Assembly (NCBI RefSeq): GCF_018919395.1
Contig: NZ_JAHLME010000001.1
Coordinates: 1 to 64,000, forward strand
Direction: 5' to 3'
Origin: Geomonas azotofigens
GTDB taxonomy: Bacteria > Desulfobacterota > Desulfuromonadia > Geobacterales > Geobacteraceae
DNA length: 64,000 nucleotides
Notes under the pieces: generated by a model
Told to the model about the DNA's origin: nothing
What the model saw: only the letters and a program-made list of their open reading frames with translations
Databases searched by the model: none
Shown here: positions 57,847 to 59,723 of the stretch, piece after piece
Numbering within the stretch: position 1 is the first letter of the stretch
How the letters are laid out: each line of letters starts with the position of its first letter
Made by a program: the position numbers and the translations under genes

Positions 57847-57875
57847 TTGACATTAGAGCCTTCGAGTGGCATTAA
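57847..57875 (+). promoter_or_regulatory. Promoter of the aromatic attenuator and DAHP synthase gene
   Basis: A perfect TTGACA (57847-57852), then 17 bases to CATTAA (57870-57875), a weak -10. The predicted start is at or next to the leader-peptide ATG at 57883. Confidence 0.6.
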
Positions 57876-57882
57876 CGCTGTC

Positions 57883-57969
57883 ATGATCAACACCGGCTAC
57901 TTTACCTTTACTAACTTTTACTTTTGGTACGGCTTTTATTTTAGGCCGTCGCCCCGGGTAGAGGTGTAA
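57883..57969 (+). CDS. Leader peptide rich in Phe, Tyr and Trp (28 aa)
   Basis: A 28-residue reading frame too short for usual gene finding. Residues 5-20 read GYFTFTNFYFWYGFYF: six Phe (all TTT), four Tyr and one Trp among 16 residues. It ends in RPSPRVEV. This composition and its place before a DAHP synthase gene make it a control peptide: when charged tRNA-Phe or tRNA-Tyr is scarce the ribosome stalls on these codons. There is no Shine-Dalgarno site, but the promoter would put the mRNA start at the ATG, so translation may be leaderless. Confidence 0.85.
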   Translation: MINTGYFTFTNFYFWYGFYFRPSPRVEV

Positions 57970-58096
57970 TTTAGGTAGCAGGTACTAAATTCCGAACCGA
58001 AGCCGGGGTGGCAGGATTCTCCTCCCCCTTACGGTTCGGATAGCAGATTACCAGAACATCATACTAAGGGCCGGGGGAGCAATCCTCCGGCCCTTT
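57929..58096 (+). promoter_or_regulatory. Transcription attenuator of the DAHP synthase gene
   Basis: Mutually exclusive pairings can be drawn. Segment 57948-57957 (GTCGCCCCGG, end of the leader peptide) pairs over ten bases with 58003-58012 (CCGGGGTGGC). If it does, CTCCCCC at 58022-58028 is free to pair with GGGGGAG at 58073-58079 and block the terminator. If the ribosome reads on to the TAA at 57967-57969 and covers the first segment, 58003-58012 folds with CCTCCCC inside the hairpin CCGAACCG/CGGTTCGG (57992-58039), and the terminator forms. A small hairpin AATTTAG/CTAAATT also occurs at 57968-57991. Confidence 0.8.
58066..58096 (+). terminator. Attenuator terminator before the DAHP synthase gene
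   Basis: GGGCCGGGGGA-GCAA-TCCTCCGGCCC followed by TTTCGCTTT. It lies 30 bases before the start codon. Confidence 0.85.
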
Positions 58097-58125
58097 CGCT
58101 TTGGGGACCAACAAGGAGCGTGAGT

Positions 58126-59145
58126 ATGATCGTGGTAATGAAGGCAGGAGCGGCAAAGAAGGAACGGGACGCAGTCACCAAGAGGATCAAGGAACTCGGC
58201 TACACCCCGCACATCATCCGCGGCACCACCCGCGACGTCATCGGCGCGGTCGGCGACGAGCGGGGCAAGAGCGTGCTGCAGACGCTCGAGTCGATGCAGG
58301 GCGTGGAGAGCGTGGTTCCCATCCTGCAACCGTACAAGCTGGCCTCCAAGGAAGTGAAGAAAGAGCCGAGTGTCGTGCGCATCTCGGACACCCTCGCCAT
58401 CGGCGGCAAGGAACTGGTGGTCATGGCCGGCCCCTGTTCGGTGGAGAACGAGGAGCAGATCATCGAATCGGCCAGGGCCGTCAAGGCGGCGGGCGCCCAG
58501 ATGCTCAGGGGGGGCGCCTTCAAACCCCGCACCTCCCCCTACTCCTTCCAGGGCCTTGAAGAAGAAGGCCTGAAACTCCTCGCCAAGGCCCGCGACCTGA
58601 CCGGCCTCCCCTTCGTCACCGAGGTCATCGATCCTGAATCCGTCGACCTGGTCGCCTCGTACTCCGACATGCTCCAGATCGGGGCCCGCAACGCGCAGAA
58701 CTTCGCCCTGTTGAAGAAAGTTGGCCAGATCAACAAGCCGATCCTGTTGAAGCGCGGCATGTCCATGACCATCCAGGAATTCCTGATGAGCGCCGAGTAC
58801 ATCATGAGCGAGGGGAACCAGTCGGTGATCCTGTGCGAGCGCGGCATCAGGACCTTCGAGACCGCCACCAGGAACACCCTCGACCTCTCCGCGATTCCGG
58901 TCTTGAAGAACAAGACCCACCTCCCCATCGTCATCGATCCCTCCCACGGCACCGGCAACTACCATTACATCGCGCCGATGTCCTACGCCGCGGTTGCCGC
59001 AGGCGCGGATGGCCTGATCATCGAGGTCCATCCCGATCCCGAGAAGGCCTCCTCCGACGGTCCGCAGTCGCTCAAGCCGAAGAAGTTCCAGGCACTGATG
59101 GACCGCCTGAAGCTGTTCGCGGAAGCGGCGGAGAAGACGCTGTAA
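58126..59145 (+). CDS. aroF: 3-deoxy-7-phosphoheptulonate (DAHP) synthase, type I-beta with ACT-like domain
   Basis: First step of the shikimate pathway: phosphoenolpyruvate plus erythrose-4-phosphate to DAHP. It has 339 residues. The N-terminal ferredoxin-like regulatory domain (about 1-70, [17 protein letters not shown]) is like that of Thermotoga DAHPS, which allows feedback inhibition by Tyr or Phe. The barrel (about 85-339) has [69 protein letters not shown] and [20 protein letters not shown] at 58126 is 7 bases after AAGGAG; GTG at 58120 is too close. Expression is probably set by the leader-peptide attenuator just upstream. Confidence 0.96.
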
Positions 59146-59158
59146 AGGCAGGAGCAAA

Positions 59159-59723
59159 GGCAGGGGCTAGGGACTGGGGGCTAGGGGATGGCAAATCCTC
59201 TCGCCCACGGTTCCCCGCCACCTGTGGGGGCGAATGATTATTCGCCCGGCGCTCTTGCCCCACGGACGCTGCACGTCTACAGGGCGATGGCGGAATAACG
59301 GCAGGGGCTAGGGGCTGGAGGCTGGCAAAAATCGCTCTCGCCCGCGTTCCCCGCCACCTGTAGGGGCGAATAATCATTCGCCCGGCGCTCTTGCCTCACG
59401 GACGCTGCACATCCACAGGGCGATGGCGGAATAACGGCAGGGGCTAGGGGCTAGAGGCTGGCAAAACACCTCTCGCCCGCGTTCCCCGCCACCTGTAGGG
59501 GCGAATAATTATTTGCCCCGACGCTCTTGCCTCACGGACGCTGCACGTCTACAGGGCGATGGCGGAATAACGGCAGGTGCTGGGGGCTGGCAAAATCCTC
59601 TCGCCCGCGTTCCCCGCCACCTGTAGGGGCGAATAATTATTCGCCCAACGCTGTTGCCTCACGGAGGCGGCACGTCTACAGGGCGATGGCGGAATCAGGG
59701 CGAATGATTATTCGCCCCTACAG
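59159..59723. repeat. Tandem array of four 136-141 base units with palindromes
   Basis: Units begin at 59159, 59300, 59436 and 59572. Each has GGCAGGGGCTAGGGGCTGG-like wording, CTCTCGCCCGCGTTCCCCGCCACC, one dispersed palindrome (59222-59248, 59358-59383, 59493-59519, 59621-59646), GCGCTCTTGCCTCACGGACG and ACAGGGCGATGGCGGAATA. A fifth palindrome (59698-59723) closes the array. No gene is present in this stretch of about 680 bases. Confidence 0.9.

Follow-up and report, generated by a model that had tools for sequence, protein, structure and literature searches.

A predicted leader-peptide attenuator ahead of the DAHP synthase gene aroF of Geomonas azotofigens, with a pairing core that recurs at other amino-acid loci of the phylum

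The aroF gene of Geomonas azotofigens occupies positions 58126–59145 (+) of the window analyzed here, the first 64,000 nucleotides of contig NZ_JAHLME010000001.1. It encodes a type I-beta DAHP synthase with the Pfam domain DAHP_synth_1 (PF00793, E = 3.2e-84) and a ferredoxin-like domain (PF18152, E = 2.6e-20), which confirms the earlier note's placement of a DAHP synthase gene downstream of the leader, and it is the gene that the leader would control. The protein is 99% and 98% identical to those of its closest named relatives, G. diazotrophica and G. propionica, respectively, and a Shine-Dalgarno (SD) sequence, AAGGAG, lies at 58113–58118 (+). All 19 genomes of the genus carry one DAHP synthase (E ≤ 1e-100). 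Of the 29 other genomes of the family, 22 give multiple matches, with a second kind of enzyme that is 53 to 59% identical; in the 20 second paralogs that we checked, the covariance model matched none (0/20) and no comparable leader was present upstream. On the 3′ side of aroF, short direct repeats around 'gtaggggcgaataatcattcgcccgg' can be seen by eye at 59170–59650.

Upstream of aroF, an open reading frame at 57883–57969 (+), delimited from the sequence and from peptide profile A1, begins with an ATG that has no SD sequence, ends with TAA at 57967–57969, and encodes the 28-residue peptide MINTGYFTFTNFYFWYGFYFRPSPRVEV. Its six Phe, four Tyr, and one Trp had been pointed out before and are present, the 11 aromatic residues spanning 15 positions. 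Profile A1, built from 20 chosen leader peptides, recognizes the window leader at E = 1.2e-16. A chance aromatic reading frame is ruled out by the matches to this profile in 47 of 48 family genomes and, at E ≤ 0.01, in 179 of 277 genomes of the class (132 of 187 good genomes), a class count that misses diverged leaders. The family genomes each have one strong match (E of 2.4e-9 or better), and all 47 matches lie, by coordinates, directly 5′ of the primary aroF; the 48th genome (G022, 78% complete) contains only the second DAHP synthase paralog. The leader is found at aroF in all 19 genomes of the genus. Placement of the same leader before genes other than aroF within the class was considered and rejected: 13 of the 14 loci with extra or unplaced copies precede aroF, and the remaining one (L215) ends at a contig edge. 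The 20 chosen peptides share invariant M1, F14, W15, G17, F18, and S23. The Trp is kept in all 78 Geobacterales-type upstream regions (72 unique), a set from which no region was excluded for absence of Trp and which includes one locus, L029, filed as a Thermodesulfovibrionales metagenome-assembled genome (MAG). Leaders much like that of the window were seen in L029 and in L035, from a Nitrospiraceae MAG, before AroF proteins that share 78% and 74% identity, respectively, with that of the window; transfer or a binning error would explain their position. With respect to codon usage, the choice among synonymous control codons affects attenuator sensitivity according to PMC1183508. Over the 72 leaders, Phe is encoded by TTT 346 times and by TTC 135 times, and the aroF gene of the window has no TTT and eight TTC. 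There is a single Phe tRNA, and the published synonymous-codon argument may then not apply.

The region before the leader contains a −35-like TTGACA at 57847–57852 (+) and, after a 17-nt spacer, a weak −10-like CATTAA at 57870–57875 (+); a promoter scan of the window found no promoter and did not list the TTGACA. In 70 of the 72 unique Geobacterales leaders, TTGAC lies 35 to 38 nt before the leader ATG (42 and 46 nt in the other two), and 69 of these 70 have C or T at position −1. SD-like motifs stand before aroF in all 72 loci and before the leader ATG in only 2. The leader mRNA is quite probably leaderless, with +1 on the A of the ATG or beside it, and a start predicted at this AUG implies that the leader would be translated as a leaderless mRNA. 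A precedent is trpL of Sinorhizobium meliloti, for which PMC7298713 describes an attenuator RNA that begins at the leader ATG; that element is a Trp leader of trpE(G) and its leaderless nature is known, whereas the leaderless start of aroF is only predicted. By eye, five Desulfuromonadales loci (L030, L032–L034, and L036) have a purine-rich, SD-like stretch before the ATG.

From the leader codons to the aroF start, five segments can pair in alternative ways. Segment 1 (57948–57957, +; GTCGCCCCGG) lies in the Pro-Ser-Pro-Arg codons of the leader and, for antitermination, would pair with segment 2 (58003–58012, +; CCGGGGTGGC) over ten positions, including two G·U pairs and an exact CCCCGG/CCGGGG core. 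Segment 2 can otherwise enter hairpin 2:3 (T1; 57991–58040, +), the arms of which (57991–57999 and 58032–58040) are exactly complementary over 9 nt; this hairpin is terminator-like in most Geobacterales and is without a U tract here. Segment 3 (58022–58028, +; CTCCCCC) can pair either with the segment 2 region or, exactly, with the GGGGGAG of segment 4 (58073–58079, +). Segment 4 is in turn part of hairpin 4:5, the predicted terminator T2 (58066–58095, +), with arms at 58066–58078 and 58083–58095 that are 92% complementary. A short hairpin inside the leader codons (57929–57949, +; arms 57929–57934 and 57944–57949) reaches 2 nt into segment 1. The pairings proposed earlier, namely 1:2, 3:4, the 2:3 hairpin, and the terminator, are all found in the sequence, and the fold of the 256-nt leader is more stable than those of 200 out of 200 shuffles (z = −7.15).

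We propose, with a probability of about 0.87, that the aroF leader is a ribosome-mediated, leader-peptide transcription attenuator, and consider it likely that the full relay, including 3:4, operates. Scarcity of charged Phe-, Tyr-, or Trp-tRNA would stall the ribosome on the aromatic codons. A ribosome covers about 10 nt past its A site, and segment 1 would remain uncovered whichever of the nine aromatic codons of the Tyr6–Phe18 stretch occupied that site. Free segment 1 would then pair with segment 2 and block hairpin 2:3, releasing segment 3 to capture segment 4 and block terminator 4:5, upon which aroF would be transcribed. When aromatic aminoacyl-tRNA is plentiful, the ribosome would reach the stop codon at 57967 and mask segment 1, hairpins 2:3 and 4:5 would form, and transcription would end. 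Because hairpin 2:3 of Geomonas has no U tract (3 T of 9), it would act there as a relay hairpin; in 57 of 60 phylum loci inspected outside the class, both hairpins are U-tailed and would constitute a double lock. The comparisons establish the layout of the leader, its conservation, four coevolving helices, the association with aroF across the family, and which genes lie downstream in the phylum; the start site, stalling, termination, the direction of the response, and the sensitivity to each amino acid are what we infer from the sequence.

The proposed relay, 1:2 plus 3:4 against 2:3 plus 4:5, differs from textbook attenuators in its register. In the E. coli and Salmonella trp and pheA leaders, 1:2 and 3:4 terminate and 2:3 antiterminates. 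The aroF leader resembles these in that a stall on control codons would select the antiterminator; unlike them, it would use 1:2 and 3:4 for antitermination. The trp-type register (3:4 terminator, 1:2 protector, 2:3 antiterminator) was not found, segment 1 lying inside the leader codons. Because of this position, and because no segment clearly protects termination without translation, untranslated leader RNA should read through, a predicted default that is unusual. The earlier note's appeal to trp/phe-type logic is well supported for leader-peptide attenuation of aroF and does not hold for the four-segment register, since the antiterminator is 1:2. The plausible relay of the aroF leader resembles the enterobacterial his attenuator, a relay of more than four segments in which B:C and D:E are opposed to C:D and E:F with one terminator. 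The his case differs in that 57 of 60 phylum loci have tandem U-tailed hairpins and Geomonas one likely terminator, and in that the aroF leader hairpin at 57929–57949, with its 2-nt overlap, hardly competes with segment 1.

Attenuated DAHP synthase genes are already known. The closest case is the aroR-aroF attenuator of Corynebacterium glutamicum (Neshat et al. 2014, as reported in PMC11802643), in which a Phe/Tyr leader also precedes a DAHP synthase gene and ribosome stalling also raises transcription; it belongs to another phylum, and our comparison covers its leader peptide. According to that report, the Phe-Tyr-Phe leader answers Phe and not Tyr; in view of this and of the single Trp codon here, the earlier suggestion that all three end products are sensed at once is only a possibility. 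The uORFC-13-1 motif (PMC8632094), a predicted uORF attenuator before aroF in Acholeplasma represented by 24 sequences, is also from another phylum, and tandem terminators go unmentioned in the portion of its description considered here. Among the paper titles and abstract openings searched, none described this element for Geobacter or other members of the phylum, and a word search of PMC545781, on metal-reducing delta-proteobacteria, did not return "leader peptide," "aromatic amino," or "tryptophan." For Geobacter and its phylum, a large and little-studied group of bacteria, the aroF leader is a specific candidate site at which the synthesis of aromatic amino acids would be regulated.

Conservation of the helices was examined in 52 Geobacterales sequences of less than 85% identity. 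In a swap test that compares cognate with swapped duplexes and does not correct for kinship, z was −5.5 for 1:2, −7.9 for an inner stem around the leader stop codon, −5.1 for 2:3, and −11.3 for 4:5; five control segment pairs gave −1.0 to +0.9. Alignment A2 tells the same for 1:2, the inner stem, and 4:5: 89.3% of cells are paired, 13 of 22 pairs have two-sided changes versus 5.1 in shuffles, and pairing falls to 36 to 54% when the partner is slid. Within A2, helix 1:2 is paired in 95.4% of cells with two-sided changes in five of eight pairs, and helix 4:5 has such changes in five of nine; hairpin 2:3 stands outside the A2 pair count, two lineages being one column off, and was scored by lineage. 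The expectation that relatives would keep the aromatic codons and the pairings, with compensatory changes, is therefore borne out for 1:2, the inner stem, 2:3, and 4:5; 3:4 does not covary in Geobacterales (swap-test z = −2.2). The hairpin within the leader codons is paired in 91.9% of cells of the 52 sequences, with three of six pairs changed on both sides, among them synonymous third bases that covary in one six-sequence group; it may be an RNA polymerase pause hairpin.

The status of 3:4 bears on a rival explanation, namely that this helix never forms, that T2 terminates weakly or as a back-up, and that the choice between 1:2 and 2:3 alone decides. The missing covariation of 3:4 in Geobacterales would fit this, although with 91.2% of cells pairable the covariation test speaks neither for nor against the helix, and across the phylum 3:4 coevolves (z = −7.4 over 43 non-redundant loci) and T2 is U-tailed. 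Folding gives a mixed picture. Both series of calculations cover the RNA from the ribosome onward. In equilibrium folds with the ribosome at the stop codon, all 52 sequences prefer 2:3 and 51 prefer 4:5; with a stall at the Trp codon, 1:2 is preferred over 2:3 in 11 of 52 and 3:4 over 4:5 in 15 of 52. Equilibrium folding alone thus fails to reproduce the switch in most of the 52 sequences, and in the window sequence a stall at Trp favors 1:2 as far as the end of segment 3, whereas the full-length RNA reverts to 2:3 plus 4:5. We also folded the RNA sequentially, in the order of transcription, holding 1:2 and the inner pairs once formed. When the ribosome stalls at the Trp codon, every one of the 52 sequences forms 1:2 and, with segment 4 emerging, 3:4; after the appearance of segment 5, with 1:2 still held, 3:4 persists in 23 and 4:5 forms in 29, the latter favoring a decision between 1:2 and 2:3 only. 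With the ribosome at the stop codon, 2:3 forms in all 52, 3:4 appears transiently before segment 5 in 21, and the final structure contains 4:5 in 51. Taken together, the equilibrium and sequential outcomes mean that the switch must depend on timing.

The tails of the two hairpins bear on the same question. When T is counted over the 9 nt that follow the final G/C pair of the stem and five or more are taken as U-rich, T1 is U-rich in 35 of 52 Geobacterales sequences and T2 in 19 of 52; the richer T1 and the generally U-poor T2 would again suit a switch without 3:4. In the window, however, T1 has 3 T of 9, and T2 is followed by TTTCGCTTT, with 6 T of 9 that are not a clean U run; a simple terminator scan of the window did not list T2. 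In the Geomonas-type loci inspected (L001, L098–L102, and L114), the GGC-U run of segment 3 is gone and the 2:3 stem is extended outward. Geomonas has thus lost the U-tailed putative first terminator, and because 2:3 lacks a U tract in these loci, T2 is the likelier terminator there, which runs counter to T2 as a mere back-up. The weight of T1 versus T2 differs among Geobacterales lineages, T2 often being weak by the tail measure. On balance, we regard a switch that dispenses with 3:4 as unlikely.

Two other rival explanations also concern the leader of the window. Alternative hairpins might hide the aroF ribosome-binding site and attenuate translation, with no termination involved. An exact 8-nt pairing of 58058–58065 with 58123–58130 covers the aroF start codon in the minimum-energy fold, and 33 of 52 T2 tails are poor in U, as such a mechanism would allow. 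But the aroF SD sequence lies outside both hairpins, the start-codon pairing is absent by eye in two neighbors (L098 and L099), and U-rich tails follow T1 in 35 of 52 Geobacterales sequences and both hairpins in 57 of 60 phylum loci; we hold translational attenuation to be improbable. Even less credible is a tRNA- or metabolite-binding riboswitch, such as a T-box, with the leader frame incidental. A structured leader conserved before an amino-acid gene is what a riboswitch would look like, but conservation extends to the reading frame of the leader, elsewhere the leader codons track the gene's product, and neither the window leader nor any of 20 related loci scored at the gathering threshold of an Rfam family, T-box included; a further Rfam comparison gave only matches under that threshold. 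Transcription attenuation by the leader peptide remains the reading that we adopt.

The element is confined neither to aroF nor to the Geobacteraceae: its RNA core recurs, joined to other leader codons, upstream of many amino-acid genes of the phylum. From the 52 aroF leaders alone we built a covariance model, R1, which matched 144 of 395 phylum genomes, 15 of them in the window's own genome, family, order, or class and 129 outside the class, some of the latter matches covering the terminator part only. We inspected 60 listed matches from outside the class, which were picked by score and as second copies rather than at random; an automatic search found two U-tailed hairpins in 57 of them. The first downstream open reading frames, clustered and named via a profile on one or two representatives each, comprise type Ib DAHP synthase (20 loci), 2-amino-3,7-dideoxy-hept-6-ulosonate synthase (14), type Ia DAHP synthase (9), phenylacetate-CoA ligase (5), aminotransferase (4), TrpE (2), and an ABC periplasmic protein (2), along with single genes for a TrpB-like protein, a thiamine pyrophosphate (TPP) enzyme (L245), which we take to be acetolactate-synthase-like, a TPR protein (L252), and a protein without a profile match (L229), presumably amidotransferase-like.

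The predicted leader codons match the product of the downstream gene. Trp-rich leaders precede TrpE (L230 and L231), the TrpB-like gene (L241), and DAHP synthase genes followed by an open reading frame that is TrpE-like by resemblance (L235 and L247); a GILGLLLPLV leader precedes the TPP enzyme, the one putative branched-chain gene of the set; and Phe/Tyr-rich leaders precede nearly all other inspected genes, L229 excepted. The leader codons predict a downstream gene's purpose. For example, the Phe-rich leaders before phenylacetate-CoA ligase (PaaK; L238, L240, L242, L259, and L270, one member of the cluster named via profile) suggest that the enzyme may there serve Phe synthesis from phenylacetate and not its breakdown. 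Fusions of DAHP synthase with prephenate dehydratase (PF00793 plus PF00800) were seen behind the attenuator in L232 and L248. The ABC periplasmic binding proteins of L261 and L287 (Peripla_BP_6 in Pfam for L287) stand behind Tyr- or Phe-rich leaders and are perhaps concerned with aromatic amino-acid uptake.

Across the phylum, the swap test on 43 non-redundant loci gave z values of −11.5 for 1:2, −15.6 for 2:3, and −17.8 for 4:5, with controls that were not flat (−0.4; 3:5, −3.1; 1:4, −3.3; 2:5, −4.0), so that 3:4 is supported phylum-wide and is not cleanly separated from relatedness or from the likeness of T1 and T2. Segment 1 is GUCUGCC or one of four near forms in 40 of 57 phylum loci, read in frame 0 (VCP) in 14, frame 1 (GLP) in 11, and frame 2 (SA) in 15. 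Since R1 itself favors GUCUGCC and its hits are biased accordingly, we examined loci found by AroF protein alone. Outside Geobacterales, 37 of 75 such loci have an aromatic leader, and the 7-mer, in one of five forms picked after inspection of the data, occurs in 29 of these 37 versus 4.2% of mononucleotide shuffles; the 29 are distributed over frames 0, 1, and 2 as 10, 2, and 17, and 25 have a downstream partner, G·U allowed. In Geobacterales, one of seven close forms is present in 67 of 72 leaders, always in frame 2. The use of all three reading frames argues for selection on the RNA, and one core with swapped sensor codons would allow RNA selection to be separated from peptide selection. 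Perhaps something recognizes GUCUGCC itself.

Whether these cores share an origin is a matter of degree. Convergence on GC-rich terminators, as opposed to common descent, could explain the core in other operons of the phylum; the bias of R1 and its terminator-only matches of up to 21.5 bits in the window's own genome are in keeping with it, whereas the frequency of the 7-mer and its partner at loci chosen by AroF protein argues the other way, and we hold convergence to be possible if rather doubtful. A single shared module by descent seems to us about an even prospect. In its fuller form, which we advance tentatively and at somewhat less than even odds, the aroF leader would be one copy of an exchangeable module in which the sensor peptide varies with the amino acids sensed (Phe/Tyr, Trp, or branched-chain); its core would consist of GUCUGCC in the leader codons, of GGGCAGAC as its partner within the first of a pair of near-repeat terminators, and of the 3:4 bridge that links the terminators, and it would span the phylum and at least Rokubacteria/Methylomirabilota. 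The set found by AroF protein includes Rokubacteria/Methylomirabilota leaders (L038, L048, L050, L052, L053, L058, L067, and L069), and R1 matched 12 of 95 genomes of that phylum, weakly, at 21.6 to 35.1 bits. Further copies of the leader in the window's own genome were considered and dropped: the 16 additional R1 matches, three of which were inspected, all score 21.5 bits or less, and nine cover the terminator part only. With a register that is not trp-type, the aroF leader looks like a member of a phylum-wide family. The locus whose downstream gene is without a profile match, L229, has the full core (GUCUGCCC/GGGCAGAC and two hairpins) with a leader that reads CMC, and this leader may sense Cys or Met.
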